DNA from: Comamonas sp. 26
GTDB taxonomy: Bacteria > Pseudomonadota > Gammaproteobacteria > Burkholderiales > Burkholderiaceae_C
Direction: 5' to 3'
Assembly (NCBI RefSeq): GCF_002754475.1
Contig: NZ_PEFL01000001.1
Coordinates: forward strand, 2,356,001 to 2,420,000
DNA length: 64,000 nucleotides
Shown here piece by piece: positions 37,922 to 63,610 of the stretch. Each line of letters starts with the position of its first letter. Positions within the stretch are counted from its first letter, which is position 1. The translations under genes were made by a program, and so were the position numbers. Below the pieces are notes generated by a model that made no database searches, was not told the DNA's origin, and saw nothing but the letters and a program-made list of their open reading frames with translations.

Positions 37922-37945
37922 GTTCTTCTCCTTGTCTTTGATGAA

Positions 37946-38401: not shown

Positions 38402-38462
38402 CGTTGTCTCCTTCTCATTAACGGTCACACATGCGCTGCGCGCCTGCTTCTTGCACTTCTGT

Positions 38463-40857: not shown

Positions 40858-40867
40858 AAGCTCCCTT

Positions 40868-40912
40868 TTTAATAGCTTAAAGCGCACATCAGATATACGC
40901 TACAAGCTGTTT
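40868..40912. repeat. Dispersed short repeat (AATAGCTGC family), diverged copy
   Basis: TTTAATAGCTTAAAGCGC and TACGCTACAAGCTGTTTTCA in the gap between the small cytochrome gene and soxC, inside the sox transcript. Confidence 0.4.
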
Positions 40913-45250: not shown

Positions 45251-46003
45251 TCACGGCAAAAATCCTTCCTGCTTCATTCGCTTCAGCAAATCCCGCCAAC
45301 GCGTAATGCGGTCTACCGACGAAGGCTGCGCCCCCCCCACATAAACCCCTTGCGCGTTAAAACTAAAAACAGGCGTCAGATCCTTACGCTGGCTGGATGG
45401 CAGCAAAAAATCCACCATGCTGTCCAGCACCAGCGGCTCGCCCGTGGGCGCCTCGTAGTAACCCAGCACCATATGTGCAATGCTTTGCGTGCTGCCCACC
45501 CCGCCCATGCGCGCCCGGACATAGATCAGCCGCAATTTGTCCCCTGGCACCCCAAGCCGCAGCAGCGAAAAATATTTGCCAATCACATAGTCCTCGCAAT
45601 CGCCCGCGCCCTTGCCCAACGTCTCCAGCGGCGTCGCCCAGTAATCCGGCTGTGCCCAGAGCATGCTGTCATCTGTCTGCACCACAGCGCGATTCCAGAA
45701 TTCATTGACGGCAGGCAACTGCTGCGACAACGGTCTGCTTTTCTGGGCCTTCAGCATCGCCAGCCACTGGCCCAGTCGCTGCACACCTGCCGCGCCATAA
45801 CGGGACTGCATACTGCTCTGCAAACGCCCTTCGTCAAAATCCAGGGCAACGGCATCCGACCTTGCCTGCAATGCCAAAGCGCCCAGCATTCCCGAGCCGA
45901 ACACAAGCATGCCTCTGCGTGACAGGCGCGGAAGTGTGCTCGCGAAATGCGGCAGCAGGAGGCTAGGCGAAGTGCTCAATTGAGTGACAGAAAAGCAAAC
46001 CAC
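45251..46003 (-). CDS. lapG: Periplasmic cysteine protease LapG (transglutaminase-like)
   Basis: A 250-residue protein of the LapG/DUF920 family. Triad residues: Cys136 in KGAGDCEDYVIGKYFSLLRL, His177 in QSIAHMVLGYYEAP and Asp194 in LVLDSMVDFLLP. The hydrophobic N-terminus (MLVFGSGMLGALALQA) is an export signal. Known LapG is calcium-dependent and cuts the N-terminus of LapA-type adhesins at a TAAG-like site, releasing them. The start is uncertain: GTG 46003 has no ribosome site, and ATG at residue 32 would still keep the signal. It lies between the adhesin and lapD. Confidence 0.88.
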   Translation of the reverse strand: MVCFSVTQLSTSPSLLLPHFASTLPRLSRRGMLVFGSGMLGALALQARSDAVALDFDEGRLQSSMQSRYGAAGVQRLGQWLAMLKAQKSRPLSQQLPAVNEFWNRAVVQTDDSMLWAQPDYWATPLETLGKGAGDCEDYVIGKYFSLLRLGVPGDKLRLIYVRARMGGVGSTQSIAHMVLGYYEAPTGEPLVLDSMVDFLLPSSQRKDLTPVFSFNAQGVYVGGAQPSSVDRITRWRDLLKRMKQEGFLP

Positions 46004-46211: not shown

Positions 46212-49200
46212 TCAGCTGTGATCGATCTTGAGCTTGCCTTGATCAATCAGCTGCTTGATCATCGCGTTCTGGTCATGGCTCGTGCCCACCAGATCCACGC
46301 CCTCGACCAAGATCTTCTGGTTGAAGCCATTACCGTCCGCATCAAGTGCCCCGGCCGTCGAGACCTTGACCACCGTATCGATGGTCTTACCATCGGCTTC
46401 GGTGCGTGTCTCGAGGTGCAGGAACTTGCTCAGATCACTCGAAGCCTCTTCGCCTTGCAGCAGATCGGCCAGATCTAGCGCGTCGTTACCCGAGGCGCCG
46501 AAGTTCTTCACCACATCGGTAACCGGACGCGCCACCGTACCCGCATCGCCCTGATGCCAGACGAACAAATCGTCTTCGGCCGTGCCTAGCAGCGAGTCGC
46601 CGGACGACGTGCCGTGCACTTCATGGCTGCCAGTATCGGTACTCGACAAGGCCATGCGAGAAGCAGCCAGCGTCGTTGCGCCCGGTCCGGTCGCGTCGAT
46701 GCTGATGTCCAGGCTTGCCGTATCGGTATCGCCATCGGCCTGGGTCAGCTTGTACTCGAAGTGTTCTACCTTTCCTGCTCCGGCCGCGTTCGCGGTCGGC
46801 GTGTAGGTGTAGGAACCGTCGGCCTTGATCAGCAGAGAGCCGTAGCTGCCAGTGATCGTCGTACCACCCGATGCCGCATTGACCCAGGTCGAACCGTTGA
46901 ACACCGACAGCGTCGATGTCTCCCCCAACGTGACCAACGTGTCGTTAGACGTGACCGAGCCGGTGACGGCCGTGCTCGACCATTCGATAGTCGTCGCGCC
47001 GGGCACGATGGCCGCGAAGTCATCGAAGGCCACGGTCGCAGTATTGCTGGAGCCAGAGCCTGAATAGCCTTCATTCACTGTCAGCACGATACGGTACATC
47101 GCATTCGCGTCGAGCGCCGATGTGGTGATGGTGGTGGCGGCCGTGATGGAGCCACTTTGCCCATCGACCGTCGACCATGTAGTGCCGCCGTTGGTGCTCT
47201 TGACGAGCTGCCAGCTCGCATAATCCTGCCAGCCACTGGTCAGACCGCTGACGCTTGTCACCTTGAATTGCAGCGTGGTTCCCGCAGTAGAAACGGTATA
47301 GGTCGGCGTGGCCAGTTGCGCACTGCCCGAGCCCGAGCCATTGTTGTCCCTGAGCACCAAGGCACTCCCGCTGACCGAAGCATCCAGCGCCGAGCCATTG
47401 AGGGACGTGGACAGCCATTTCCCCAGGTCGGAGCGAAGCACGCTATTGCTCGTCAGGTCCGCTGTGTTCTTGTCCACCGTCGTCGTGCCGCTCACGAACT
47501 TCCACGCATAGCTATCACCGCTATTGAAATTCGCCAGCGTAGGATCAGTCGCCACGCTCTTAGACGTCAGCGTTGCGCTGTTCGTATCGTCGACCGCATG
47601 CGGCTTGCTGGTGAAGCTCGCGCTGCCGTCTGCCGTGCTGCTGCCGTCGGTAGCTACTGCAACGACCTTGATCTCATTGACTTTCACATTTTCAGGGACG
47701 GTCATGTTCAGACCGGTGATGGTGACAGCCTTGGTGACGGGATCAATGTTCACCGAATAACTGCCGTTGCTGGCCAATGGCAAGGACCAGTGAGTCGCAT
47801 CAATCTGGACTCCAGCGGACAGCGTGACGCCCTTTGGCACTTCCACAGTCACTTTGGTAATCGTCTCTGAATAATCCATATCCTGAGGCGTGGCCGTGAT
47901 CGTGACGGGATAAGTCGTTGCCGTCGTGTAAGTCACCTTGTTAATCAGATAGTCGTCATCCACACGAGGTGCGTCAAAGACGATCTGGCTGATCGTGCTT
48001 CCCGCTGGAACACTCAGTTTGAACTGAGTGTCCACCTTGTCGCTGCCGCCCTTGACGAATCCATAAAGACCGCTTGCGGCATTCGCAGAGCCGTCTGCGT
48101 TGTATCCCAGAACAACGGGCTTTTTCGCCTCGTCATACATCTGATAACGAGCCCATTCCCCTGAAGCCAGCCAAGCAAACTGCACCGTGATTGCCGTCAC
48201 AGGTATGTTGAATTGAATGGCCAAAGACTCAGAACCTGTAGAGTTGCGTCCAATTTCGGTCGAATCTCCTGACGCAGCACCACTGACACCGAAACCATCG
48301 TGATCCGTACCGGTCACCGTGCTCACAGTCCCTTTGGTTCCATTCACGTTGTACGCCGTCACGGTGTGGCCCGCATTGGACGTATTCACGCTGGTCGCAG
48401 TGATCGATGTGGTAACGGGCGTAGACCCTGTACCCACATTCACACTGACCACAGGGGTATCAGCCACTGGCGTCACATTAATATCGAGCGTGCTGGAGAG
48501 TCCTGTGTTGGTGGTGTAAGTCACGGTCGGCACAGTTCCGCTCCAGTCTTTACTGGGGGAAAAGCTGTAATTGCCATTGGCGGACATCGACAAAGAGCCA
48601 ATCACTTTTCCGGCCGAGTCAGTCACCGACACGACGCTTGTCCCAGCTATATAAGACACGCCATTAACGCTGAAGCTTGCTACGGCCAAAGAGCCATTCG
48701 TGCCATAGCCTGGGTCATTGACAAGCACATTGTCAGACACAGGTGTGTCCTCAAGAGTTGTCTTGGTATCTGGCATCGCATCGTTATCAATGATCGTGCT
48801 AGTAGCGGTGTCTTGAGCCCCCTTACTCAGAGGCCCAAAGCTACCATTTGTGTCGACAACACCACTAATTTTGACCACCAGTTGCTCTGCGTTTTCGGCA
48901 ACTGCATCATCGACCGTTTTGACCGTAAAAGTAGCTTGATGACTACCTCCGCTGATCGTTACTGAGGCCGGACGACCTGTAGTGTCGTTGTTGTTAGCAG
49001 CGTCACCACTCCACATCAGCACTACATTCACGCTCTTGCCCAAAGGCACGCTCACGTCGTTGCCATCCTTGTCCACTAGCTTGACTGTGTAAATAAGCTC
49101 GCCGCCTTCGGTGACCTGGCTCTTATCTACACTAATTACCGCAAATACTGGAGGTGGAGTGACGGTCACCGTGACCTTGGCGGTCTCGGGCGTGCCGTCG

Positions 49201-52200
49201 TCGGTTTTGACGGTGTAGTTGAACTCGGCCGCTCCGGTGTAGCCGGCATCCGCCTTGAAGCTCAGCTGTCCATCCGTGCCCAGCGTCACCGTGCCGTGAT
49301 CCACGGCCACGGCTGCTCCGCCGGCCGTGATAGCCGTGCCGTTGACGTGCGTGACCACCTTGTGGTTGCCTTCAAAGGCGTCGTTGGCCAGCACATCAAT
49401 TTTGACGCTCTGTCCGCTGGTGGTGCTGCCGCTGTCGTCGCTGGCGTCTTTTTCTGGCGCCACGTTGAGGTGGATGACTTGCGTCGTCGTGTTGCCCAGG
49501 GCGTCCTTGACCGTCACCGTGAAGCTGTCCGCTCCGTTGTAGTCGGCCTTGGGCGTGTAGCTCCAGTTGCCGTTGGCGTCGATGCTCGCCGTGCCGTGCT
49601 GCGCTGCTGCGCTGACGCTGTAAGGCGTGGTGCTGTCCAGCCCGTCCAGGTCGCTCGCTGTCAGCTTGCCGCTGATGGCTGCACCGTCTTCCGCTCCGTT
49701 GCCTGTGATCTGGCCGGTGACGCTGGTGCCGTTGGCACCCACGGTCACCGTGACCTTGGCGCTCTCGGGCGTGCCGTCGTCGGTTTTAGCGGTGTACGTG
49801 AACTCGGCCGCTCCGGTGTAGCCGGCATCCGCCTTGAAGCTCAGCTGTCCATCCGTGCCCAGCGTCACCGTGCCGTGATCCACGGCCACGGCTGCTCCGC
49901 CGGCCGTGATAGCCGTGCCGTTGACGTGCGTGACCACCTTGTGGTTGCCTTCAAAGGCGTCGTTGGCCAGCACATCAATTTTGACGCTCTGTCCGCTGGT
50001 GGTGCTGCCGCTGTCGTCGCTGGCGTCTTTTTCTGGCGCCACGTTGAGGTGGATGACTTGCGTCGTCGTGTTGCCCAGGGCGTCCTTGACCGTCACCGTG
50101 AAGCTGTCCGCTCCGTTGTAGTCGGCCTTGGGCGTGTAGCTCCAGTTGCCGTTGGCGTCGATGCTCGCCGTGCCGTGCTGCGCTGCTGCGCTGACGCTGT
50201 AAGGCGTGGTGCTGTCCAGCCCGTCCAGGTCGCTCGCTGTCAGCTTGCCGCTGATGGCTGCACCGTCTTCCGCTCCGTTGCCTGTGATCTGGCCGGTGAC
50301 GCTGGTGCCGTTGGCACCCACGGTCACCGTGACCTTGGCGCTCTCGGGCGTGCCGTCGTCGGTTTTAGCGGTGTACGTGAACTCGGCCGCTCCGGTGTAG
50401 CCGGCATCCGCCTTGAAGCTCAGCTGTCCATCCGTGCCCAGCGTCACCGTGCCGTGATCCACGGCCACGGCTGCTCCGCCGGCCGTGATAGCCGTGCCGT
50501 TGACGTGCGTGACCACTTTGTGGTTGCCTTCAAAGGCGTCGTTGGCCAGCACATCAATTTTGACGCTCTGTCCGCTGGTGGTGCTGCCGCTGTCGTCGCT
50601 GGCGTCTTTTTCTGGCGCCACGTTGAGGTGGATGACTTGCGTCGTCGTGTTGCCCAGGGCGTCCTTGACCGTCACCGTGAAGCTGTCCGCTCCGTTGTAG
50701 TCGGCCTTGGGCGTGTAGCTCCAGTTGCCGTTGGCGTCGATGCTCGCCGTGCCGTGCTGCGCTGCTGCGCTGACGCTGTAAGGCGTGGTGCTGTCCAGCC
50801 CGTCCAGGTCGCTCGCTGTCAGCTTGCCGCTGATGGCTGCACCGTCTTCCGCTCCGTTGCCTGTGATCTGGCCGGTGACGCTGGTGCCGTTGGCACCCAC
50901 GGTCACCGTGACCTTGGCGCTCTCGGGCGTGCCGTCGTCGGTTTTAGCGGTGTACGTGAACTCGGCCGCTCCGGTGTAGCCGGCATCCGCCTTGAAGCTC
51001 AGCTGTCCATCCGTGCCCAGCGTCACCGTGCCGTGATCCACGGCCACGGCTGCTCCGCCGGCCGTGATAGCCGTGCCGTTGACGTGCGTGACCACCTTGT
51101 GGTTGCCTTCAAAGGCGTCGTTGGCCAGCACATCAATTTTGACGCTCTGTCCGCTGGTGGTGCTGCCGCTGTCGTCGCTGGCGTCTTTTTCTGGCGCCAC
51201 GTTGAGGTGGATGACTTGCGTCGTCGTGTTGCCCAGGGCGTCCTTGACCGTCACCGTGAAGCTGTCCGCTCCGTTGTAGTCGGCCTTGGGCGTGTAGCTC
51301 CAGTTGCCGTTGGCGTCGATGCTCGCCGTGCCGTGCTGCGCTGCTGCGCTGACGCTGTAAGGCGTGGTGCTGTCCAGCCCGTCCAGGTCGCTCGCTGTCA
51401 GCTTGCCGCTGATGGCTGCACCGTCTTCCGCTCCGTTGCCTGTGATCTGGCCGGTGACGCTGGTGCCGTTGGCACCCACGGTCACCGTGACCTTGGCGCT
51501 CTCGGGCGTGCCGTCGTCGGTTTTAGCGGTGTACGTGAACTCGGCCGCTCCGGTGTAGCCGGCATCCGCCTTGAAGCTCAGCTGTCCATCCGTGCCCAGC
51601 GTCACCGTGCCGTGATCCACGGCCACGGCTGCTCCGCCGGCCGTGATAGCCGTGCCGTTGACGTGCGTGACCACCTTGTGGTTGCCTTCAAAGGCGTCGT
51701 TGGCCAGCACATCAATTTTGACGCTCTGTCCGCTGGTGGTGCTGCCGCTGTCGTCGCTGGCGTCTTTTTCTGGCGCCACGTTGAGGTGGATGACTTGCGT
51801 CGTCGTGTTGCCCAGGGCGTCCTTGACCGTCACCGTGAAGCTGTCCGCTCCGTTGTAGTCGGCCTTGGGCGTGTAGCTCCAGTTGCCGTTGGCGTCGATG
51901 CTCGCCGTGCCGTGCTGCGCTGCTGCGCTGACGCTGTAAGGCGTGGTGCTGTCCAGCCCGTCCAGGTCGCTCGCTGTCAGCTTGCCGCTGATGGCTGCAC
52001 CGTCTTCCGCTCCGTTGCCTGTGATCTGGCCGGTGACGCTGGTGCCGTTGGCACCCACGGTCACCGTGACCTTGGCGCTCTCGGGCGTGCCGTCGTCGGT
52101 TTTAGCGGTGTACGTGAACTCGGCCGCTCCGGTGTAGCCGGCATCCGCCTTGAAGCTCAGCTGTCCATCCGTGCCCAGCGTCACCGTGCCGTGATCCACG

Positions 52201-55200
52201 GCCACGGCTGCTCCGCCGGCCGTGATAGCCGTGCCGTTGACGTGCGTGACCACCTTGTGGTTGCCTTCAAAGGCGTCGTTGGCCAGCACATCAATTTTGA
52301 CGCTCTGTCCGCTGGTGGTGCTGCCGCTGTCGTCGCTGGCGTCTTTTTCTGGCGCCACGTTGAGGTGGATGACTTGCGTCGTCGTGTTGCCCAGGGCGTC
52401 CTTGACCGTCACCGTGAAGCTGTCCGCTCCGTTGTAGTCGGCCTTGGGCGTGTAGCTCCAGTTGCCGTTGGCGTCGATGCTCGCCGTGCCGTGCTGCGCT
52501 GCTGCGCTGACGCTGTAAGGCGTGGTGCTGTCCAGCCCGTCCAGGTCGCTCGCTGTCAGCTTGCCGCTGATGGCTGCACCGTCTTCCGCTCCGTTGCCTG
52601 TGATCTGGCCGGTGACGCTGGTGCCGTTGGCACCCACGGTCACCGTGACCTTGGCGCTCTCGGGCGTGCCGTCGTCGGTTTTAGCGGTGTACGTGAACTC
52701 GGCCGCTCCGGTGTAGCCGGCATCCGCCTTGAAGCTCAGCTGTCCATCCGTGCCCAGCGTCACCGTGCCGTGATCCACGGCCACGGCTGCTCCGCCGGCC
52801 GTGATAGCCGTGCCGTTGACGTGCGTGACCACCTTGTGGTTGCCTTCAAAGGCGTCGTTGGCCAGCACATCAATTTTGACGCTCTGTCCGCTGGTGGTGC
52901 TGCCGCTGTCGTCGCTGGCGTCTTTTTCTGGCGCCACGTTGAGGTGGATGACTTGCGTCGTCGTGTTGCCCAGGGCGTCCTTGACCGTCACCGTGAAGCT
53001 GTCCGCTCCGTTGTAGTCGGCCTTGGGCGTGTAGCTCCAGTTGCCGTTGGCGTCGATGCTCGCCGTGCCGTGCTGCGCTGCTGCGCTGACGCTGTAAGGC
53101 GTGGTGCTGTCCAGCCCGTCCAGGTCGCTCGCTGTCAGCTTGCCGCTGATGGCTGCACCGTCTTCCGCTCCGTTGCCTGTGATCTGGCCGGTGACGCTGG
53201 TGCCGTTGGCACCCACGGTCACCGTGACCTTGGCGCTCTCGGGCGTGCCGTCGTCGGTTTTAGCGGTGTACGTGAACTCGGCCGCTCCGGTGTAGCCGGC
53301 ATCCGCCTTGAAGCTCAGCTGTCCATCCGTGCCCAGCGTCACCGTGCCGTGATCCACGGCCACGGCTGCTCCGCCGGCCGTGATAGCCGTGCCGTTGACG
53401 TGCGTGACCACTTTGTGGTTGCCTTCAAAGGCGTCGTTGGCCAGCACATCAATTTTGACGCTCTGTCCGCTGGTGGTGCTGCCGCTGTCGTCGCTGGCGT
53501 CTTTTTCTGGCGCCACGTTGAGGTGGATGACTTGCGTCGTCGTGTTGCCCAGGGCGTCCTTGACCGTCACCGTGAAGCTGTCCGCTCCGTTGTAGTCGGC
53601 CTTGGGCGTGTAGCTCCAGTTGCCGTTGGCGTCGATGCTCGCCGTGCCGTGCTGCGCTGCTGCGCTGACGCTGTAAGGCGTGGTGCTGTCCAGCCCGTCC
53701 AGGTCGCTCGCTGTCAGCTTGCCGCTGATGGCTGCACCGTCTTCCGCTCCGTTGCCTGTGATCTGGCCGGTGACGCTGGTGCCGTTGGCACCCACGGTCA
53801 CCGTGACCTTGGCGCTCTCGGGCGTGCCGTCGTCGGTTTTAGCGGTGTACGTGAACTCGGCCGCTCCGGTGTAGCCGGCATCCGCCTTGAAGCTCAGCTG
53901 TCCATCCGTGCCCAGCGTCACCGTGCCGTGATCCACGGCCACGGCTGCTCCGCCGGCCGTGATAGCCGTGCCGTTGACGTGCGTGACCACCTTGTGGTTG
54001 CCTTCAAAGGCGTCGTTGGCCAGCACATCAATTTTGACGCTCTGTCCGCTGGTGGTGCTGCCGCTGTCGTCGCTGGCGTCTTTTTCTGGCGCCACGTTGA
54101 GGTGGATGACTTGCGTCGTCGTGTTGCCCAGGGCGTCCTTGACCGTCACCGTGAAGCTGTCCGCTCCGTTGTAGTCGGCCTTGGGCGTGTAGCTCCAGTT
54201 GCCGTTGGCGTCGATGCTCGCCGTGCCGTGCTGCGCTGCTGCGCTGACGCTGTAAGGCGTGGTGCTGTCCAGCCCGTCCAGGTCGCTCGCTGTCAGCTTG
54301 CCGCTGATGGCTGCACCGTCTTCCGCTCCGTTGCCTGTGATCTGGCCGGTGACGCTGGTGCCGTTGGCACCCACGGTCACCGTGACCTTGGCGCTCTCGG
54401 GCGTGCCGTCGTCGGTTTTAGCGGTGTACGTGAACTCGGCCGCTCCGGTGTAGCCGGCATCCGCCTTGAAGCTCAGCTGTCCATCCGTGCCCAGCGTCAC
54501 CGTGCCGTGATCCACGGCCACGGCTGCTCCGCCGGCCGTGATAGCCGTGCCGTTGACGTGCGTGACCACCTTGTGGTTGCCTTCAAAGGCGTCGTTGGCC
54601 AGCACATCAATTTTGACGCTCTGTCCGCTGGTGGTGCTGCCGCTGTCGTCGCTGGCGTCTTTTTCTGGCGCCACGTTGAGGTGGATGACTTGCGTCGTCG
54701 TGTTGCCCAGGGCGTCCTTGACCGTCACCGTGAAGCTGTCCGCTCCGTTGTAGTCGGCCTTGGGCGTGTAGCTCCAGTTGCCGTTGGCGTCGATGCTCGC
54801 CGTGCCGTGCTGCGCTGCTGCGCTGACGCTGTAAGGCGTGGTGCTGTCCAGCCCGTCCAGGTCGCTCGCTGTCAGCTTGCCGCTGATGGCTGCACCGTCT
54901 TCCGCTCCGTTGCCTGTGATCTGGCCGGTGACGCTGGTGCCGTTGGCACCCACGGTCACCGTGACCTTGGCGCTCTCGGGCGTGCCGTCGTCGGTTTTAG
55001 CGGTGTACGTGAACTCGGCCGCTCCGGTGTAGCCGGCATCCGCCTTGAAGCTCAGCTGTCCATCCGTGCCCAGCGTCACCGTGCCGTGATCCACGGCCAC
55101 GGCTGCTCCGCCGGCCGTGATAGCCGTGCCGTTGACGTGCGTGACCACCTTGTGGTTGCCTTCAAAGGCGTCGTTGGCCAGCACATCAATTTTGACGCTC

Positions 55201-58200
55201 TGTCCGCTGGTGGTGCTGCCGCTGTCGTCGCTGGCGTCTTTTTCTGGCGCCACGTTGAGGTGGATGACTTGCGTCGTCGTGTTGCCCAGGGCGTCCTTGA
55301 CCGTCACCGTGAAGCTGTCCGCTCCGTTGTAGTCGGCCTTGGGCGTGTAGCTCCAGTTGCCGTTGGCGTCGATGCTCGCCGTGCCGTGCTGCGCTGCTGC
55401 GCTGACGCTGTAAGGCGTGGTGCTGTCCAGCCCGTCCAGGTCGCTCGCTGTCAGCTTGCCGCTGATGGCTGCACCGTCTTCCGCTCCGTTGCCTGTGATC
55501 TGGCCGGTGACGCTGGTGCCGTTGGCACCCACGGTCACCGTGACCTTGGCGCTCTCGGGCGTGCCGTCGTCGGTTTTAGCGGTGTACGTGAACTCGGCCG
55601 CTCCGGTGTAGCCGGCATCCGCCTTGAAGCTCAGCTGTCCATCCGTGCCCAGCGTCACCGTGCCGTGATCCACGGCCACGGCTGCTCCGCCGGCCGTGAT
55701 AGCCGTGCCGTTGACGTGCGTGACCACCTTGTGGTTGCCTTCAAAGGCGTCGTTGGCCAGCACATCAATTTTGACGCTCTGTCCGCTGGTGGTGCTGCCG
55801 CTGTCGTCGCTGGCGTCTTTTTCTGGCGCCACGTTGAGGTGGATGACTTGCGTCGTCGTGTTGCCCAGGGCGTCCTTGACCGTCACCGTGAAGCTGTCCG
55901 CTCCGTTGTAGTCGGCCTTGGGCGTGTAGCTCCAGTTGCCGTTGGCGTCGATGCTCGCCGTGCCGTGCTGCGCTGCTGCGCTGACGCTGTAAGGCGTGGT
56001 GCTGTCCAGCCCGTCCAGGTCGCTCGCTGTCAGCTTGCCGCTGATGGCTGCACCGTCTTCCGCTCCGTTGCCTGTGATCTGGCCGGTGACGCTGGTGCCG
56101 TTGGCACCCACGGTCACCGTGACCTTGGCGCTCTCGGGCGTGCCGTCGTCGGTTTTAGCGGTGTACGTGAACTCGGCCGCTCCGGTGTAGCCGGCATCCG
56201 CCTTGAAGCTCAGCTGTCCATCCGTGCCCAGCGTCACCGTGCCGTGATCCACGGCCACGGCTGCTCCGCCGGCCGTGATAGCCGTGCCGTTGACGTGCGT
56301 GACCACTTTGTGGTTGCCTTCAAAGGCGTCGTTGGCCAGCACATCAATTTTGACGCTCTGTCCGCTGGTGGTGCTGCCGCTGTCGTCGCTGGCGTCTTTT
56401 TCTGGCGCCACGTTGAGGTGGATGACTTGCGTCGTCGTGTTGCCCAGGGCGTCCTTGACCGTCACCGTGAAGCTGTCCGCTCCGTTGTAGTCGGCCTTGG
56501 GCGTGTAGCTCCAGTTGCCGTTGGCGTCGATGCTCGCCGTGCCGTGCTGCGCTGCTGCGCTGACGCTGTAAGGCGTGGTGCTGTCCAGCCCGTCCAGGTC
56601 GCTCGCTGTCAGCTTGCCGCTGATGGCTGCACCGTCTTCCGCTCCGTTGCCTGTGATCTGGCCGGTGACGCTGGTGCCGTTGGCACCCACGGTCACCGTG
56701 ACCTTGGCGCTCTCGGGCGTGCCGTCGTCGGTTTTAGCGGTGTACGTGAACTCGGCCGCTCCGGTGTAGCCGGCATCCGCCTTGAAGCTCAGCTGTCCAT
56801 CCGTGCCCAGCGTCACCGTGCCGTGATCCACGGCCACGGCTGCTCCGCCGGCCGTGATAGCCGTGCCGTTGACGTGCGTGACCACCTTGTGGTTGCCTTC
56901 AAAGGCGTCGTTGGCCAGCACATCAATTTTGACGCTCTGTCCGCTGGTGGTGCTGCCGCTGTCGTCGCTGGCGTCTTTTTCTGGCGCCACGTTGAGGTGG
57001 ATGACTTGCGTCGTCGTGTTGCCCAGGGCGTCCTTGACCGTCACCGTGAAGCTGTCCGCTCCGTTGTAGTCGGCCTTGGGCGTGTAGCTCCAGTTGCCGT
57101 TGGCGTCGATGCTCGCCGTGCCGTGCTGCGCTGCTGCGCTGACGCTGTAAGGCGTGGTGCTGTCCAGCCCGTCCAGGTCGCTCGCTGTCAGCTTGCCGCT
57201 GATGGCTGCACCGTCTTCCGCTCCGTTGCCTGTGATCTGGCCGGTGACGCTGGTGCCGTTGGCACCCACGGTCACCGTGACCTTGGCGCTCTCGGGCGTG
57301 CCGTCGTCGGTTTTAGCGGTGTACGTGAACTCGGCCGCTCCGGTGTAGCCGGCATCCGCCTTGAAGCTCAGCTGTCCATCCGTGCCCAGCGTCACCGTGC
57401 CGTGATCCACGGCCACGGCTGCTCCGCCGGCCGTGATAGCCGTGCCGTTGACGTGCGTGACCACCTTGTGGTTGCCTTCAAAGGCGTCGTTGGCCAGCAC
57501 ATCAATTTTGACGCTCTGTCCGCTGGTGGTGCTGCCGCTGTCGTCGCTGGCGTCTTTTTCTGGCGCCACGTTGAGGTGGATGACTTGCGTCGTCGTGTTG
57601 CCCAGGGCGTCCTTGACCGTCACCGTGAAGCTGTCCGCTCCGTTGTAGTCGGCCTTGGGCGTGTAGCTCCAGTTGCCGTTGGCGTCGATGCTCGCCGTGC
57701 CGTGCTGCGCTGCTGCGCTGACGCTGTAAGGCGTGGTGCTGTCCAGCCCGTCCAGGTCGCTCGCTGTCAGCTTGCCGCTGATGGCTGCACCGTCTTCCGC
57801 TCCGTTGCCTGTGATCTGGCCGGTGACGCTGGTGCCGTTGGCACCCACGGTCACCGTGACCTTGGCGCTCTCGGGCGTGCCGTCGTCGGTTTTAGCGGTG
57901 TACGTGAACTCGGCCGCTCCGGTGTAGCCGGCATCCGCCTTGAAGCTCAGCTGTCCATCCGTGCCCAGCGTCACCGTGCCGTGATCCACGGCCACGGCTG
58001 CTCCGCCGGCCGTGATAGCCGTGCCGTTGACGTGCGTGACCACCTTGTGGTTGCCTTCAAAGGCGTCGTTGGCCAGCACATCAATTTTGACGCTCTGTCC
58101 GCTGGTGGTGCTGCCGCTGTCGTCGCTGGCGTCTTTTTCTGGCGCCACGTTGAGGTGGATGACTTGCGTCGTCGTGTTGCCCAGGGCGTCCTTGACCGTC

Positions 58201-61200
58201 ACCGTGAAGCTGTCCGCTCCGTTGTAGTCGGCCTTGGGCGTGTAGCTCCAGTTGCCGTTGGCGTCGATGCTCGCCGTGCCGTGCTGCGCTGCTGCGCTGA
58301 CGCTGTAAGGCGTGGTGCTGTCCAGCCCGTCCAGGTCGCTCGCTGTCAGCTTGCCGCTGATGGCTGCACCGTCTTCCGCTCCGTTGCCTGTGATCTGGCC
58401 GGTGACGCTGGTGCCGTTGGCACCCACGGTCACCGTGACCTTGGCGCTCTCGGGCGTGCCGTCGTCGGTTTTAGCGGTGTACGTGAACTCGGCCGCTCCG
58501 GTGTAGCCGGCATCCGCCTTGAAGCTCAGCTGTCCATCCGTGCCCAGCGTCACCGTGCCGTGATCCACGGCCACGGCTGCTCCGCCGGCCGTGATAGCCG
58601 TGCCGTTGACGTGCGTGACCACCTTGTGGTTGCCTTCAAAGGCGTCGTTGGCCAGCACATCAATTTTGACGCTCTGTCCGCTGGTGGTGCTGCCGCTGTC
58701 GTCGCTGGCGTCTTTTTCTGGCGCCACGTTGAGGTGGATGACTTGCGTCGTCGTGTTGCCCAGGGCGTCCTTGACCGTCACCGTGAAGCTGTCCGCTCCG
58801 TTGTAGTCGGCCTTGGGCGTGTAGCTCCAGTTGCCGTTGGCGTCGATGCTCGCCGTGCCGTGCTGCGCTGCTGCGCTGACGCTGTAAGGCGTGGTGCTGT
58901 CCAGCCCGTCCAGGTCGCTCGCTGTCAGCTTGCCGCTGATGGCTGCACCGTCTTCCGCTCCGTTGCCTGTGATCTGGCCGGTGACGCTGGTGCCGTTGGC
59001 ACCCACGGTCACCGTGACCTTGGCGCTCTCGGGCGTGCCGTCGTCGGTTTTAGCGGTGTACGTGAACTCGGCCGCTCCGGTGTAGCCGGCATCCGCCTTG
59101 AAGCTCAGCTGTCCATCCGTGCCCAGCGTCACCGTGCCGTGATCCACGGCCACGGCTGCTCCGCCGGCCGTGATAGCCGTGCCGTTGACGTGCGTGACCA
59201 CCTTGTGGTTGCCTTCAAAGGCGTCGTTGGCCAGCACATCAATTTTGACGCTCTGTCCGCTGGTGGTGCTGCCGCTGTCGTCGCTGGCGTCTTTTTCTGG
59301 CGCCACGTTGAGGTGGATGACTTGCGTCGTCGTGTTGCCCAGGGCGTCCTTGACCGTCACCGTGAAGCTGTCCGCTCCGTTGTAGTCGGCCTTGGGCGTG
59401 TAGCTCCAGTTGCCGTTGGCGTCGATGCTCGCCGTGCCGTGCTGCGCTGCTGCGCTGACGCTGTAAGGCGTGGTGCTGTCCAGCCCGTCCAGGTCGCTCG
59501 CTGTCAGCTTGCCGCTGATGGCTGCACCGTCTTCCGCTCCGTTGCCTGTGATCTGGCCGGTGACGCTGGTGCCGTTGGCACCCACGGTCACCGTGACCTT
59601 GGCGCTCTCGGGCGTGCCGTCGTCGGTTTTAGCGGTGTACGTGAACTCGGCCGCTCCGGTGTAGCCGGCATCCGCCTTGAAGCTCAGCTGTCCATCCGTG
59701 CCCAGCGTCACCGTGCCGTGATCCACGGCCACGGCTGCTCCGCCGGCCGTGATAGCCGTGCCGTTGACGTGCGTGACCACCTTGTGGTTGCCTTCAAAGG
59801 CGTCGTTGGCCAGCACATCAATTTTGACGCTCTGTCCGCTGGTGGTGCTGCCGCTGTCGTCGCTGGCGTCTTTTTCTGGCGCCACGTTGAGGTGGATGAC
59901 TTGCGTCGTCGTGTTGCCCAGGGCGTCCTTGACCGTCACCGTGAAGCTGTCCGCTCCGTTGTAGTCGGCCTTGGGCGTGTAGCTCCAGTTGCCGTTGGCG
60001 TCGATGCTCGCCGTGCCGTGCTGCGCTGCTGCGCTGACGCTGTAAGGCGTGGTGCTGTCCAGCCCGTCCAGGTCGCTCGCTGTCAGCTTGCCGCTGATGG
60101 CTGCACCGTCTTCCGCTCCGTTGCCTGTGATCTGGCCGGTGACGCTGGTGCCGTTGGCACCCACGGTCACCGTGACCTTGGCGCTCTCGGGCGTGCCGTC
60201 GTCGGTTTTAGCGGTGTACGTGAACTCGGCCGCTCCGGTGTAGCCGGCATCCGCCTTGAAGCTCAGCTGTCCATCCGTGCCCAGCGTCACCGTGCCGTGA
60301 TCCACGGCCACGGCTGCTCCGCCGGCCGTGATAGCCGTGCCGTTGACGTGCGTGACCACTTTGTGGTTGCCTTCAAAGGCGTCGTTGGCCAGCACATCAA
60401 TTTTGACGCTCTGTCCGCTGGTGGTGCTGCCGCTGTCGTCGCTGGCGTCTTTTTCTGGCGCCACGTTGAGGTGGATGACTTGCGTCGTCGTGTTGCCCAG
60501 GGCGTCCTTGACCGTCACCGTGAAGCTGTCCGCTCCGTTGTAGTCGGCCTTGGGCGTGTAGCTCCAGTTGCCGTTGGCGTCGATGCTCGCCGTGCCGTGC
60601 TGCGCTGCTGCGCTGACGCTGTAAGGCGTGGTGCTGTCCAGCCCGTCCAGGTCGCTCGCTGTCAGCTTGCCGCTGATGGCTGCACCGTCTTCCGCTCCGT
60701 TGCCTGTGATCTGGCCGGTGACGCTGGTGCCGTTGGCACCCACGGTCACATCGCTGGCTACACCACTAATCCGATTCTCAGACACCGACACTAAAGAAGG
60801 ATTTGGGTACGCCAGCGCCAGCGGCGAAGTGAGTTCGAGAATGCTGTTCAAGCGCACAAAGGTGCTGCCGCCTTCACTACCTCCGCTCAGAGTGGCCGCA
60901 GTAGGATCCAAGTCGGCAAACGGATCCTGACCCGCATTGATGGCGGCAAGGACTTGATTGATATCAATGGCTGCCGGTTGTGCGATGGCCGCTTCCTGAG
61001 GCTGGGGTGGATTGAGCAAATCCCCTGTTAATGCGACATCCTGATTTTCACCAATGATGAGGGGTGGCTGGCCGTCTGCCTGCAGCTCTACCGAGGATCC
61101 ACTAGCTGTGATGATTTGCGCATCTGCTGGGATGCGCATACCTTCGTGAATCACGGTCAGATTGCCATCTGTACCCCGCATCCATGCTTGGCCAGTGAGC

Positions 61201-61229
61201 TTGGTAACGAGAACGGTTTGAGCTGCCAT
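46212..61229 (-). CDS. Giant LapA-like type I-secreted biofilm adhesin (5005 residues)
   Basis: Residues 1–130 form the LapA-type retention module: MAAQTVLVTKLTGQAWMRGT, EGMRIPADAQIITASGSSVE, and NQVLAAINAGQDPFADLDPT, then AATLSGGSEGGSTFVRL, where the LapG cleavage motif sits at 108–113 (DPTAAT). Residues 161 to about 4020 are 20 tandem units of 193 residues. Each unit combines a VCBS-like segment (KLTASDLDGLDSTTPYSVSA, GTASIDANGNWSYTPKADYN) and a cadherin-like tandem-95 segment (IDVLANDAFEGNHKVVTHVN, LSFKADAGYTGAAEFTYTAK). Then come a Calx-beta domain (SVDKSQVTEGGELIYTVKLV), several unique domains, and a type I secretion C-terminus (GTAEDDLFVWHQGD, DALDLADLLQGEEAS). ATG at 61229 follows GAGG. 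Confidence 0.93.
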   Translation of the reverse strand: MAAQTVLVTKLTGQAWMRGTDGNLTVIHEGMRIPADAQIITASGSSVELQADGQPPLIIGENQDVALTGDLLNPPQPQEAAIAQPAAIDINQVLAAINAGQDPFADLDPTAATLSGGSEGGSTFVRLNSILELTSPLALAYPNPSLVSVSENRISGVASDVTVGANGTSVTGQITGNGAEDGAAISGKLTASDLDGLDSTTPYSVSAAAQHGTASIDANGNWSYTPKADYNGADSFTVTVKDALGNTTTQVIHLNVAPEKDASDDSGSTTSGQSVKIDVLANDAFEGNHKVVTHVNGTAITAGGAAVAVDHGTVTLGTDGQLSFKADAGYTGAAEFTYTAKTDDGTPESAKVTVTVGANGTSVTGQITGNGAEDGAAISGKLTASDLDGLDSTTPYSVSAAAQHGTASIDANGNWSYTPKADYNGADSFTVTVKDALGNTTTQVIHLNVAPEKDASDDSGSTTSGQSVKIDVLANDAFEGNHKVVTHVNGTAITAGGAAVAVDHGTVTLGTDGQLSFKADAGYTGAAEFTYTAKTDDGTPESAKVTVTVGANGTSVTGQITGNGAEDGAAISGKLTASDLDGLDSTTPYSVSAAAQHGTASIDANGNWSYTPKADYNGADSFTVTVKDALGNTTTQVIHLNVAPEKDASDDSGSTTSGQSVKIDVLANDAFEGNHKVVTHVNGTAITAGGAAVAVDHGTVTLGTDGQLSFKADAGYTGAAEFTYTAKTDDGTPESAKVTVTVGANGTSVTGQITGNGAEDGAAISGKLTASDLDGLDSTTPYSVSAAAQHGTASIDANGNWSYTPKADYNGADSFTVTVKDALGNTTTQVIHLNVAPEKDASDDSGSTTSGQSVKIDVLANDAFEGNHKVVTHVNGTAITAGGAAVAVDHGTVTLGTDGQLSFKADAGYTGAAEFTYTAKTDDGTPESAKVTVTVGANGTSVTGQITGNGAEDGAAISGKLTASDLDGLDSTTPYSVSAAAQHGTASIDANGNWSYTPKADYNGADSFTVTVKDALGNTTTQVIHLNVAPEKDASDDSGSTTSGQSVKIDVLANDAFEGNHKVVTHVNGTAITAGGAAVAVDHGTVTLGTDGQLSFKADAGYTGAAEFTYTAKTDDGTPESAKVTVTVGANGTSVTGQITGNGAEDGAAISGKLTASDLDGLDSTTPYSVSAAAQHGTASIDANGNWSYTPKADYNGADSFTVTVKDALGNTTTQVIHLNVAPEKDASDDSGSTTSGQSVKIDVLANDAFEGNHKVVTHVNGTAITAGGAAVAVDHGTVTLGTDGQLSFKADAGYTGAAEFTYTAKTDDGTPESAKVTVTVGANGTSVTGQITGNGAEDGAAISGKLTASDLDGLDSTTPYSVSAAAQHGTASIDANGNWSYTPKADYNGADSFTVTVKDALGNTTTQVIHLNVAPEKDASDDSGSTTSGQSVKIDVLANDAFEGNHKVVTHVNGTAITAGGAAVAVDHGTVTLGTDGQLSFKADAGYTGAAEFTYTAKTDDGTPESAKVTVTVGANGTSVTGQITGNGAEDGAAISGKLTASDLDGLDSTTPYSVSAAAQHGTASIDANGNWSYTPKADYNGADSFTVTVKDALGNTTTQVIHLNVAPEKDASDDSGSTTSGQSVKIDVLANDAFEGNHKVVTHVNGTAITAGGAAVAVDHGTVTLGTDGQLSFKADAGYTGAAEFTYTAKTDDGTPESAKVTVTVGANGTSVTGQITGNGAEDGAAISGKLTASDLDGLDSTTPYSVSAAAQHGTASIDANGNWSYTPKADYNGADSFTVTVKDALGNTTTQVIHLNVAPEKDASDDSGSTTSGQSVKIDVLANDAFEGNHKVVTHVNGTAITAGGAAVAVDHGTVTLGTDGQLSFKADAGYTGAAEFTYTAKTDDGTPESAKVTVTVGANGTSVTGQITGNGAEDGAAISGKLTASDLDGLDSTTPYSVSAAAQHGTASIDANGNWSYTPKADYNGADSFTVTVKDALGNTTTQVIHLNVAPEKDASDDSGSTTSGQSVKIDVLANDAFEGNHKVVTHVNGTAITAGGAAVAVDHGTVTLGTDGQLSFKADAGYTGAAEFTYTAKTDDGTPESAKVTVTVGANGTSVTGQITGNGAEDGAAISGKLTASDLDGLDSTTPYSVSAAAQHGTASIDANGNWSYTPKADYNGADSFTVTVKDALGNTTTQVIHLNVAPEKDASDDSGSTTSGQSVKIDVLANDAFEGNHKVVTHVNGTAITAGGAAVAVDHGTVTLGTDGQLSFKADAGYTGAAEFTYTAKTDDGTPESAKVTVTVGANGTSVTGQITGNGAEDGAAISGKLTASDLDGLDSTTPYSVSAAAQHGTASIDANGNWSYTPKADYNGADSFTVTVKDALGNTTTQVIHLNVAPEKDASDDSGSTTSGQSVKIDVLANDAFEGNHKVVTHVNGTAITAGGAAVAVDHGTVTLGTDGQLSFKADAGYTGAAEFTYTAKTDDGTPESAKVTVTVGANGTSVTGQITGNGAEDGAAISGKLTASDLDGLDSTTPYSVSAAAQHGTASIDANGNWSYTPKADYNGADSFTVTVKDALGNTTTQVIHLNVAPEKDASDDSGSTTSGQSVKIDVLANDAFEGNHKVVTHVNGTAITAGGAAVAVDHGTVTLGTDGQLSFKADAGYTGAAEFTYTAKTDDGTPESAKVTVTVGANGTSVTGQITGNGAEDGAAISGKLTASDLDGLDSTTPYSVSAAAQHGTASIDANGNWSYTPKADYNGADSFTVTVKDALGNTTTQVIHLNVAPEKDASDDSGSTTSGQSVKIDVLANDAFEGNHKVVTHVNGTAITAGGAAVAVDHGTVTLGTDGQLSFKADAGYTGAAEFTYTAKTDDGTPESAKVTVTVGANGTSVTGQITGNGAEDGAAISGKLTASDLDGLDSTTPYSVSAAAQHGTASIDANGNWSYTPKADYNGADSFTVTVKDALGNTTTQVIHLNVAPEKDASDDSGSTTSGQSVKIDVLANDAFEGNHKVVTHVNGTAITAGGAAVAVDHGTVTLGTDGQLSFKADAGYTGAAEFTYTAKTDDGTPESAKVTVTVGANGTSVTGQITGNGAEDGAAISGKLTASDLDGLDSTTPYSVSAAAQHGTASIDANGNWSYTPKADYNGADSFTVTVKDALGNTTTQVIHLNVAPEKDASDDSGSTTSGQSVKIDVLANDAFEGNHKVVTHVNGTAITAGGAAVAVDHGTVTLGTDGQLSFKADAGYTGAAEFTYTAKTDDGTPESAKVTVTVGANGTSVTGQITGNGAEDGAAISGKLTASDLDGLDSTTPYSVSAAAQHGTASIDANGNWSYTPKADYNGADSFTVTVKDALGNTTTQVIHLNVAPEKDASDDSGSTTSGQSVKIDVLANDAFEGNHKVVTHVNGTAITAGGAAVAVDHGTVTLGTDGQLSFKADAGYTGAAEFTYTAKTDDGTPESAKVTVTVGANGTSVTGQITGNGAEDGAAISGKLTASDLDGLDSTTPYSVSAAAQHGTASIDANGNWSYTPKADYNGADSFTVTVKDALGNTTTQVIHLNVAPEKDASDDSGSTTSGQSVKIDVLANDAFEGNHKVVTHVNGTAITAGGAAVAVDHGTVTLGTDGQLSFKADAGYTGAAEFTYTAKTDDGTPESAKVTVTVGANGTSVTGQITGNGAEDGAAISGKLTASDLDGLDSTTPYSVSAAAQHGTASIDANGNWSYTPKADYNGADSFTVTVKDALGNTTTQVIHLNVAPEKDASDDSGSTTSGQSVKIDVLANDAFEGNHKVVTHVNGTAITAGGAAVAVDHGTVTLGTDGQLSFKADAGYTGAAEFTYTAKTDDGTPESAKVTVTVGANGTSVTGQITGNGAEDGAAISGKLTASDLDGLDSTTPYSVSAAAQHGTASIDANGNWSYTPKADYNGADSFTVTVKDALGNTTTQVIHLNVAPEKDASDDSGSTTSGQSVKIDVLANDAFEGNHKVVTHVNGTAITAGGAAVAVDHGTVTLGTDGQLSFKADAGYTGAAEFNYTVKTDDGTPETAKVTVTVTPPPVFAVISVDKSQVTEGGELIYTVKLVDKDGNDVSVPLGKSVNVVLMWSGDAANNNDTTGRPASVTISGGSHQATFTVKTVDDAVAENAEQLVVKISGVVDTNGSFGPLSKGAQDTATSTIIDNDAMPDTKTTLEDTPVSDNVLVNDPGYGTNGSLAVASFSVNGVSYIAGTSVVSVTDSAGKVIGSLSMSANGNYSFSPSKDWSGTVPTVTYTTNTGLSSTLDINVTPVADTPVVSVNVGTGSTPVTTSITATSVNTSNAGHTVTAYNVNGTKGTVSTVTGTDHDGFGVSGAASGDSTEIGRNSTGSESLAIQFNIPVTAITVQFAWLASGEWARYQMYDEAKKPVVLGYNADGSANAASGLYGFVKGGSDKVDTQFKLSVPAGSTISQIVFDAPRVDDDYLINKVTYTTATTYPVTITATPQDMDYSETITKVTVEVPKGVTLSAGVQIDATHWSLPLASNGSYSVNIDPVTKAVTITGLNMTVPENVKVNEIKVVAVATDGSSTADGSASFTSKPHAVDDTNSATLTSKSVATDPTLANFNSGDSYAWKFVSGTTTVDKNTADLTSNSVLRSDLGKWLSTSLNGSALDASVSGSALVLRDNNGSGSGSAQLATPTYTVSTAGTTLQFKVTSVSGLTSGWQDYASWQLVKSTNGGTTWSTVDGQSGSITAATTITTSALDANAMYRIVLTVNEGYSGSGSSNTATVAFDDFAAIVPGATTIEWSSTAVTGSVTSNDTLVTLGETSTLSVFNGSTWVNAASGGTTITGSYGSLLIKADGSYTYTPTANAAGAGKVEHFEYKLTQADGDTDTASLDISIDATGPGATTLAASRMALSSTDTGSHEVHGTSSGDSLLGTAEDDLFVWHQGDAGTVARPVTDVVKNFGASGNDALDLADLLQGEEASSDLSKFLHLETRTEADGKTIDTVVKVSTAGALDADGNGFNQKILVEGVDLVGTSHDQNAMIKQLIDQGKLKIDHS
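49170..60749 (-). repeat. Tandem array of 20 near-identical 579-bp units
   Basis: The unit is 579 bp (193 codons), repeated at exactly constant spacing; for example the same anchor occurs at 49327, 49906, 50485 and on to 60328. Units appear identical apart from rare changes, mainly a synonymous Lys codon (AAG or AAA) in NHKVV and a few differences at the two outer edges. Copy number may vary between cells or be mis-assembled from short reads. Confidence 0.95.
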
Positions 61230-61386
61230 GATGATCTGCCTCTTCAATGAATTAGGTCGTGGAGGTGTGCTTCGACACCTCTCCAATATTTCTGATGGAA
61301 TAGTAAGAGTACGCTCACAAAGCCGCTATTGGCGTCAAAGCCAATACAGCCCGGTTTCTCACTTTTCTGCTTCAATCACGTCCGTC

Positions 61387-61505: not shown

Positions 61506-62144
61506 TCAAGCCAGCTGTTTACGACCAATGCCGTGAACCTTGAGCGTCAGCATCAATCGATCCTGCACCTGCAGCTTTTCAAACACAGCTGACAGATGTG
61601 CGCGCACCGTGCGCTCACTGATGGACATCCGCTCGGCAATTTCGGAATTGCTGTCACCCAGCGATGCATATCGCGCCACTTCCTGCTCGCGGGCTGAGAG
61701 AGGCTCGGTCCAGTCCACTTCAGCCTCAGGCAAGCGGGCATCGACATCGCGCAGCAAGCGCTGCAGCAGTGAACGGCCCAGCCAGATATTGCCGCCAGCC
61801 ATGCTTTGCAGCATGCGAGACAGAACTTCTGCACTTGACTGCGCATGAGCATAACCACAAGCACCACGAGAGAGCAGTTGTCGCCCTTCCTCATCGCCGG
61901 GCCGGTTGCTGAGCACCAGAACCTGCAAGCCTTGCAGCAATTCTGCCCAGCGCTCATCGCTGTGTGCAGGGAGCTGAGGTAAGGCTGAATCTAACACCAC
62001 CAGACTACGGCCTTGCAGCTTCCAACGTTGCAGGTCCGCCAGACTTTGGCCGCGCGCAGGCATCCACTGGGGGCCTGCGATTTGCTGCCAGTTCTGCCAC
62101 AACGTGGCATCCTGAGTCAGCAACAAAACAGGCAATGTATTCAT
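61506..62144 (-). CDS. LuxR-type response regulator
   Basis: A 212-residue regulator. The N-terminal part (about 1–120) has a receiver-like fold: LPVLLLTQDATLW, LVVLDSALPQLPAH with a possible phospho-Asp, LQVLVLSNRPGDEEG, and SRGACGYAHAQSSAEVLSRM. Key receiver residues at the N-terminal acidic pair are not obvious, so phosphorylation is uncertain. The C-terminal LuxR helix-turn-helix is clear: PLSAREQEVARYASLGDSNS, EIAERMSISERTVRAHLSAV. ATG at 62144 follows GGGAGAGG. It lies 35 bases after lapC on the same strand and upstream of the adhesin, so it may set adhesin transcription. Confidence 0.85.
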   Translation of the reverse strand: MNTLPVLLLTQDATLWQNWQQIAGPQWMPARGQSLADLQRWKLQGRSLVVLDSALPQLPAHSDERWAELLQGLQVLVLSNRPGDEEGRQLLSRGACGYAHAQSSAEVLSRMLQSMAGGNIWLGRSLLQRLLRDVDARLPEAEVDWTEPLSAREQEVARYASLGDSNSEIAERMSISERTVRAHLSAVFEKLQVQDRLMLTLKVHGIGRKQLA

Positions 62145-62179
62145 GCCTCTCCCTATGATTTGTTGACGATCCATGAGAT

Positions 62180-63610
62180 CTAGCGCTCTATCAATGCATT
62201 GGACTTAGCGCGCAAAATAGGCTTGAGCAAGTACTGCATCAGCGTGCGCTTGCCTGTGAGGATGTGCACCTCGGCCTGCATGCCCGGAATGATGGGGCGA
62301 GAGTTATCGCCCACGTGCGCCTTCTCAGTGCGCACCTTGACGACATAGAAGGAATTACCCTTCTCATCCGTCACGGTGTTGGCACCAATCTGCTCCAGCT
62401 TGCCTTGCAAACCGCCGTAAATTGCAAAGTCGTATGCGGTGAACTTCACTTGAGCTTCTTGACCAAAGTGCAGAAAGCCGATGTCGCGTGGGTTGACCTG
62501 CACTTCCATCAGCAAGGTGTCATCCAACGGAACGATGTCAAGGATGTCTTTGCCAGGTTGCACTACGCCGCCTACGGTATTAGCCATCAAGGTATTGACG
62601 GTGCCGCGCACGGGAGAACGCACTTCGGCCAGCTTGACGCGGTCCTCCAGCGCGACCTTGCCCTGTTCCAGCGTCCCCAGCTTGGCCTGAGCTTCAGACA
62701 GCTCGGCGCGGGACTGGTTGCGCATATTCAGCTCGGACTCCTGAATTTTGCGTTCCGCTTCTTGAATTGCTGCCTGAATGCGCCCCACCTGTGCGCCAGC
62801 GGCGCGGGCTTCTCCGCAAAAACGTGCCACATCGCGTTGCAGCCTGAGCAGATCGACCTCAGACACCGCACCACTCTTGAGCAAGGGGCGGGTGACAGAC
62901 AGCTCTTCAGAAGTCAGGCTGCAGCTTGACGATGCCTGATCACGGTTGGCCTGCGTTTCACGCAGCTCTTGCTGGCGTTGGCGCAGCTGGTCACGTGCAA
63001 TATTGACGTTGGTATTGAGCTCCTGCGAGCGGCTCTCCCACATGCGCCGCTCCATCTCAACAAGTTGAGGGGCAGCCGCCTGAACATCCTCTGGCGCCTT
63101 GAAAGCCTCACCCGATGCCAGTGCCTGCAGGCGCGCTGCCTTGGCTTTCAGCGCCAGCAGCTCGGCCTTGTTTTCACCTAGGGACGAGCCGTAGCGCGTC
63201 GGGTCGATACGCAGAATGACCTGCCCTTTTTCGACATGTTCGCCGGGATGGACCAGAATTTCTTTGACGATGCCGCCATCCAGACTCTGAACCACCTGCA
63301 CCTGGCGCGAAGGCACGACTTTGCCCTGCCCTCGCACCACTTCATCGATATAACCAAGGCTGGCCCAAATCAACAGCACCAGCACCGTTGCCAGCGACAC
63401 CCAGATCAGCAGACGCGAGCCGCGCGCCTGCTGCTGGCCTGCCGCCCACTGGGCGTCGGCCTTCATGTCATCTGGCTGGTGCGCGCCCACCGCATCATTG
63501 CCATCAAGCAACCAGCTCTGCCCTCTATCCATCAGCGCCTTCAGGCGTGAAGACTTTTGATCTGACGAGCTGGCCGATGGATCCTGCTTCATTGCTTCGG
63601 ACTCGCTCAT
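62180..63610 (-). CDS. lapC: Type I secretion membrane fusion protein LapC (HlyD family)
   Basis: A 476-residue inner-membrane adaptor. A cytoplasmic N-terminus of about 65 residues, one helix (LLIWVSLATVLVLLIWASLG), the lipoyl-like start GQGKVVPSRQVQVVQSLDGG and HPGEHVEKGQVILRIDPTRY, a long coiled coil (about 165–330), then VKLAEVRSPVRGTVNTLM and the C-terminal HlyD signature PGMQAEVHILTGKRTLMQYL. It bridges the ABC exporter LapB and an outer-membrane TolC-like protein not seen in the window. Start overlaps the lapB stop (ATGA). Confidence 0.93.
   Translation of the reverse strand: MSESEAMKQDPSASSSDQKSSRLKALMDRGQSWLLDGNDAVGAHQPDDMKADAQWAAGQQQARGSRLLIWVSLATVLVLLIWASLGYIDEVVRGQGKVVPSRQVQVVQSLDGGIVKEILVHPGEHVEKGQVILRIDPTRYGSSLGENKAELLALKAKAARLQALASGEAFKAPEDVQAAAPQLVEMERRMWESRSQELNTNVNIARDQLRQRQQELRETQANRDQASSSCSLTSEELSVTRPLLKSGAVSEVDLLRLQRDVARFCGEARAAGAQVGRIQAAIQEAERKIQESELNMRNQSRAELSEAQAKLGTLEQGKVALEDRVKLAEVRSPVRGTVNTLMANTVGGVVQPGKDILDIVPLDDTLLMEVQVNPRDIGFLHFGQEAQVKFTAYDFAIYGGLQGKLEQIGANTVTDEKGNSFYVVKVRTEKAHVGDNSRPIIPGMQAEVHILTGKRTLMQYLLKPILRAKSNALIER

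Follow-up and report, generated by a model that had tools for sequence, protein, structure and literature searches.

A predicted LapA-type adhesin of Comamonas with a uniform repeat shaft, probably exchanged and re-copied within the genus

Among described adhesins, LapA of Pseudomonas, with its partners LapG and LapD, can be compared with a giant adhesin gene (46212..61229, minus strand) of Comamonas sp. 26, found in a 64,000 bp stretch of contig NZ_PEFL01000001.1 (positions 2,356,001 to 2,420,000; here called the window, to which all coordinates refer). The two systems are alike in having a retention module, a di-alanine site, a type I secretion system (T1SS) and neighbouring lapG- and lapD-like genes. 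They differ in that the Comamonas protein carries no repeats-in-toxin (RTX) nonapeptides and has a C-terminal part of a Comamonas type, while its LapG- and LapD-like neighbours score below the equivalog cut-offs. A second counterpart is MpAFP (MpIBP) of Marinomonas primoryensis, with about 120 immunoglobulin-like (Ig-like) repeats of 104 amino acids (aa), described as 'identical at the DNA level' in a source which adds that such genes often show up as two contigs (PMC4083281). Both proteins have DNA-identical Ig-like extender repeats and a ligand-binding end (here a predicted tip), but in the window there are 20 units of 193 aa, each of two predicted domains, and no RTX motif.

Periscope Proteins are described as proteins of variable length made of identical repeats (PMC8201768, PMC9704523). 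They share with the Comamonas adhesin tandem, highly identical, individually folded surface domains (fold and surface location being predicted here); their length variation occurs within species, whereas here there is one genome per species, and the comparison is with a pair of related genomes holding 41.9 and 32.9 copies. Homologous DDxP proteins vary in their repeat modules, which may differ, be numerous or be missing (PMC7730722). Variation of this kind also occurs at the Comamonas locus, but the window's protein has 0 DDxP motifs. The predicted tip resembles those of Aeromonas RTX adhesins (9q5u, 9cse) in combining a split domain with an inserted ligand-binding domain, although identity over aligned residues is only 14% and 27%. 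Low identity of extenders between adhesins is also in print (PMC7493085). DNA-identical extenders, repeat proteins of variable length and homologues with different or no repeats are therefore already known, and the distinctive feature of the locus described here is that shaft replacement can be followed across the genus with unusual clarity.

The gene very probably encodes a LapA-type adhesin whose shaft, twenty near-identical units of two predicted Ig-like domains each, is likely kept uniform and resized by recombination between units.

The repeat array and the adhesin gene

The array occupies 49164..60743 (minus strand) and comprises 20 head-to-tail units of 579 bp (193 aa, two predicted Ig-like domains), with constant spacing and a single minus-strand frame, in the register of the gene. 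Fifteen of the 20 units are identical in DNA. A synonymous G-to-A change at unit position 384 is common to units 1 (60165..60743), 8, 13 and 18; it is the only variable site in units 1–19, for which unit diversity is 0.0006 per site. Unit 20, at the 3′ edge (49164..49742), departs from the consensus at five nucleotides (nt) and three amino acids, all within its final 60 bp. The 5′ edge of the array (in gene sense) is abrupt, likeness to the next copy falling to background within about 6 bp, and the flanking Ig-like stretches are only 19–26% identical in the segments examined. When the unit was searched against its own genome, 21/21 matches lay inside the array (40 of 68 first-look candidates scored). 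Tandem Repeats Finder, whose longest period is 500, did not list the array. Chance is excluded as its origin.

The original prediction had placed twenty near-identical units at exact 579 bp spacing between 49170 and 60749, which is the same array in another register, and had them forming about 77% of a giant adhesin (20 × 193 = 3860 of 5005 aa, or 77%). It had also noted a near absence of synonymous change and a VCBS-like plus cadherin-like unit. All of these points held, with one synonymous site in the first 19 units and a unit above cut-off for the Big_9, Cadherin_5, Cadherin_4, VCBS and tandem-95 models. The adhesin itself is supported by its retention module, shaft, secretion signal and neighbouring genes.

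A five-unit higher-order repeat was considered for the window's array. The even spacing of the A variant has a chance probability of 0.088, and the shuffle test gave P 0.63 without overlaps and 0.04 with overlaps, so this pattern is not relied on. An antisense frame of 3832 aa (49296-60794, plus strand) stays open along the entire array. It is a by-product of unit repetition, a single unit being open in that frame and occurring 20 times, and is not claimed as a gene.

Translation of the adhesin likely begins at ATG 61229, giving 5005 aa (the open reading frame (ORF) as listed spans 46212-61286). Its N-terminal cap (60744..61229, minus strand) holds a retention module at residues 4–143 (NF033682 retention_LapA, 104.6 bits, cut-off 50). 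Downstream of the module is PTAAT (60891..60905, minus strand), a di-alanine motif positioned where LapG-type cleavage is predicted; the motif is of the type described for such sites (PMC6890996). A structural model of the shaft is all-beta, with two sandwiches per unit (mean predicted local distance difference test score 83.3). Its best Foldseek match is 6xi1, an RTX-adhesin extender tetra-tandemer (E 2e-13), at a template-modelling score (TM-score) of only 0.23, presumably reflecting differing domain orientations.

The non-repeated C-terminal part (46212..49163, minus strand; 983 aa and the stop) has long stretches that are conserved in part of the genus. In a sequence search against solved structures it matched a 'Cadherin domain protein' at residues 710–823 (E 1.4e-8) and, weakly, 6xi1. 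It includes a predicted split domain (47610..48467, minus strand) with an inserted domain resembling a carbohydrate-binding module (CBM; about 47922-48416), the predicted fold of this tip matching 9q5u (CBM plus split domain) and 9cse at the identities given above. A type I secretion C-terminal target domain lies at 46227..46517 on the same strand (TIGR03661, 48 bits, cut-off 17.6). From these sequence features, the gene is assigned to the LapA-type, type-I-secreted adhesins.

The same locus in other Comamonas genomes

Within a set of 53 genomes of the genus, matches to the C-terminal part were found in 26, to the LapG-like protein in 25 and to the N cap in 24, own genome included. The locus was compared in ten other Comamonas genomes with few contigs. 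The N cap is present in 10/10, at 59–75% aa identity to that of the window by global alignment (G405 and G409, outside that alignment, gave 76% and 70% by separate search). Long stretches of the C-terminal part are similar in 5/10, with identities, over the residues that align, of 81% (G405), 65% (G425 and G408), 64% (G401) and 55% (G409). None of the ten (0/10) carries the window's 579 bp array in the corresponding slot. Nine have other arrays there: 768 bp × 21.3 in G405, 639 bp × 8.0 in G401, 633 bp × 12.3 in G408, 630 bp × 16.0 in G409, 786 bp × 6.8 in G425, 408 bp × 41.9 in G444, 408 bp × 32.9 in G445, 321 bp × 22.0 in G432 and 363 bp × 10.2 in G440. The tenth, G446, has no array.

When units are doubled and aligned locally, the best aa identity of the window's unit to those of the other nine lap arrays is 26–38%, and a unit type is common only to G444 and G445 (97%) and to G401 and G408 (56%). 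Units of seven of the nine relatives were scanned; five match Big_9, that of G440 matches the Pfam LapA domain and that of G444 matches none. The slot therefore holds different modules in different species. The amplified unit of G425 is present as a single module in G409 (66% over 264 aa), where it precedes the different array of that genome, a pattern in favour of resident or imported modules having been amplified lineage by lineage, as read from these sequences. G446 and G444 have 95% nt identity across 1190 bp on the N side, yet the G446 adhesin is 1964 aa long without any array, suggesting that, among close relatives, a shaft has been lost or replaced, or was never acquired. On this sequence comparison, it is likely that the shaft was swapped and re-copied in evolution.

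Within the arrays, interior units are 98.9–100% identical in 7/9 relatives and 92–93% identical in the other two (G401, G408), and no variable site was found in G444 (41 full units) or G432 (22). The nucleotide uniformity had been thought unusual; with these arrays, and with the approximately 120 DNA-identical repeats of MpAFP, that view was not borne out, and the window's array is typical of its locus rather than exceptional.

Comamonas suwonensis EJ-4 has a contig on which the C-terminal part is 85% identical. In nucleotides, the N cap differs from that of this species by 4% (21 of 489 bp), the C-terminal part by 14%. The contigs bearing its caps stop at the array, the C-side edge word is present once in the assembly, and the window's unit gave only three weak matches there (best E 3.4e-8). 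No same-species copies of the unit were recognised among the proteins listed (120 of 181 hits in one search, 4 of 996 scored candidates in another), and among those 120 the best unit identity was 50% (P0006).

A second family of repeat adhesins occurs in G446, G444 and G405, near 1.86 or 2.05 Mb, with units of 636–642 bp. Their identity to the window's unit is almost 50%, a higher likeness than the low-contig genomes show in their lap-locus units. At the lap locus itself, the unit's nearest relative (59–60% aa) is at a contig end of G406, a rather distant Comamonas (LapG-like protein 58%), while closer relatives carry other units.

Homogenisation and its alternatives

The pair G444 and G445 carries the same unit at the same position in different copy numbers (41.9 and 32.9). 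Their consensus units differ at 8/408 sites, and at seven of these the difference is fixed throughout the full units (41 and 32); four synonymous codons differ between the consensus sequences, none at a site variable within G445. The N parts of the two genes are 97.2% and the C parts 91.4% identical in nt. This is, at the sequence level, the pattern of concerted evolution, and with the low unit diversity in the window it agrees with the original prediction of recent or continuing homogenisation. In G445 a block of 8 units is present twice (shuffle P 0.0008), which points to multi-unit copying. First units resemble the other units less in G405 (0.919) and G440 (0.948), in line with edges being spared homogenisation; no clear edge effect was seen in the other lap arrays within the units counted, unit 20 of the window excepted.

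A working model can be assembled from these features. The adhesin would be exported by the T1SS and held in the outer-membrane pore by its retention module, and would present a carbohydrate-binding tip on about 40 Ig-like domains, extending roughly 0.2 µm at about 5 nm per domain (the published figure for MpAFP). LapG would release it when cyclic di-GMP (c-di-GMP) is low. Unequal crossing-over together with gene conversion would homogenise the units, and now and then another module may be amplified in place of the resident ones. Swapping or re-copying the shaft would alter the attachment reach of the cell. Copy number may also vary within the species, with reach scaling accordingly, as the original prediction had it. 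Across the genus, one locus would then have kept its anchor while its shaft was repeatedly replaced, re-amplified and levelled, and the anchor, release site and secretion signal, which seem strongly constrained, would be separable from a shaft apparently selected mainly for length and stiffness. Most draft genomes break at the array, and comparisons that use them therefore lack shaft length and type.

Several observations weigh against this interpretation. In G444, G445, G446, G432 and G440 only the last 140–330 C-terminal residues align (35–56%), and the change there is therefore larger than the shaft. In 2/10 relatives the N cap is not in frame with the array as assembled, being out of frame in G405 and behind a stop codon in G409, either through real inactivation or through sequencing error. 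Neither in G409 (P 0.15, 0.10) nor in G446b did the block test reach significance, and in the window's array it did so only with overlaps (P 0.04, against 0.63 without). As to the LapA-type assignment, a motif search of the adhesin found no GGxGxD RTX nonapeptide repeats, its score against the BapA/Bap/LapF C-terminal family NF045619 (158.4 bits) is under the cut-off of 180, Foldseek alone gave no clear match for the tip, the LapG-like protein reaches 214.5 bits with NF045674 (equivalog cut-off 320), and the LapD-like protein is below the NF045673 cut-off. Finally, the number and uniformity of the window's units rest on one assembly, from one genome of the species, in which a single recent expansion would look the same.

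Such an expansion, a single very recent burst from one unit, too young to have diverged and with no homogenisation now in progress, is a possible though less probable account of the window's array. It fits the contrast between the unit diversity of 0.0006 and the 4% (N cap) and 14% (C-terminal part) divergence from C. suwonensis, as well as the abrupt 5′ edge and the dissimilar flanking Ig-like stretches. The seven differences fixed throughout G444 and G445, however, need continuing turnover in those arrays, and five other lap arrays are more than 99.8% identical inside, which is unlikely if each were a chance young burst.

It is improbable that uniformity or copy number is an artefact of assembly or of short-read polishing (collapse, over-expansion or levelling of units), although the locus is hard to assemble: the N cap and lapG are on different contigs in 11/13 drafts with an N cap, both C. 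suwonensis contigs end at array edges, and a closed genome of another species is described as having been without such a gene for nearly two decades through an assembly artefact (PMC13339910). Against this, cap and lapG are on one contig in 11/11 genomes of three contigs or fewer. Variant patterns survive in the window's genome, G409 and G445, and G401, G408 and G446b retain 2–8% unit divergence, so levelling is not general.

Seeding of the arrays by the endonuclease-insertion model proposed for DDxP proteins (PMC7730722), with target-site duplication followed by amplification, is very improbable; empty and filled homologues do exist (G446 versus G444) and DDxP motifs occur in the proteins of G409 (18) and G425 (7), but the window's protein lacks these motifs, the defining mark of the model. 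Selection on the protein and codon sequence of the unit, in place of recombination, deserves hardly any credence: the sole variable site of the first 19 units is indeed synonymous, but synonymous sites are also uniform while relatives use quite different units in the slot, the G444 and G445 consensus sequences differ at synonymous codons, and site-by-site selection leaves species-specific synonymous uniformity unexplained.

Synonymous GC content and neighbouring genes

If recombination between units homogenises the arrays, they might also record GC-biased gene conversion, more copying pushing synonymous sites to G or C whatever the module. This idea is tentative and, on the evidence below, rather unlikely to be correct. 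Biased gene conversion in bacteria has been argued for by Lassalle et al. 2015 (PMC4450053). From unit and C-part matches 49 adhesin loci were picked, 48 of them with a usable ORF, and 17 homogeneous arrays (at least 2.5 copies at ≥97%) were found, 9/11 at the lap locus and 8/37 elsewhere. GC at fourfold sites was higher in the units than in the rest of the gene in 16/17 arrays (mean +0.137, Wilcoxon 3e-5; the exception is G128), and also in 16/17 with the caps left out. For codons of the same amino acid, compared with non-homogenised homologous stretches of the same gene, 15/16 arrays were higher (exception G409_d; no data for G432), and two-fold codons went in the same direction in 14/17 (P 0.001). 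Kinship of arrays (G444/G445, G444b/G446b) inflates the significance of these P values.

Set beside the median of 7 to 52 ORFs sampled from each genome, the units were higher in 10/12 cases (P 0.034). The non-repeated adhesin parts were below the genome median in 9/12, and the caps therefore account for part of the GC gap. Homologous non-homogenised modules in other genomes gave an equivocal result, with the array units higher in 17/28 rows (338 vs 351 codons), a comparison that genome GC confounds: pairings of close genomes such as G444/G445 were favourable, unlike those with high-GC genomes or of G425 with G405 and G409. A further comparison of G425 with G409 gave 0.82 vs 0.81. Single modules were above the rest of their own gene in 21/28 rows, which speaks for modules that are GC-rich irrespective of copying. 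GC excess did not correlate with homogeneity (rho 0.36, P 0.25), and the G:C ratio among GC-ending codons showed no significant change (P 0.11). Codon selection and the import of GC-rich modules remain as explanations of the pattern. Among the papers listed in literature searches, none had a title or opening of an abstract dealing with GC enrichment in bacterial adhesin arrays or with this Comamonas locus, which is no proof of absence. Should the pattern hold up, such arrays would allow biased gene conversion in bacteria to be tested within single genes.

Downstream of the adhesin are the lapG- and lapD-like genes, and upstream are a regulator and T1SS genes, all on the minus strand. The LapG-like protease (45251..46003) scores above cut-off for Peptidase_C93. 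The LapD-like receptor (43217..45205) is above cut-off in Pfam for LapD_MoxY_N, GGDEF and EAL; by eye, their motifs are altered, with NGADF replacing GGDEF and EAS in the likely position of EAL. Just upstream of the adhesin are a LuxR-type regulator (61506..62174), an HlyD-type T1SS adaptor (62180..63610, TIGR01843 above cut-off) and the 3′ end of a T1SS ABC transporter (63607..64000, TIGR03375 above cut-off). The transporter gene runs beyond the window, where the T1SS ATPase continues and is followed by a TolC-type pore (TIGR01844 above cut-off). Further along on the other side, downstream of the lapD-like gene, minus-strand genes at 34184-40887 encode SoxA-type cytochrome, molybdopterin oxidoreductase, cytochrome c and 5′-nucleotidase-type domains, suggesting a sulfur-oxidation (sox) cluster.

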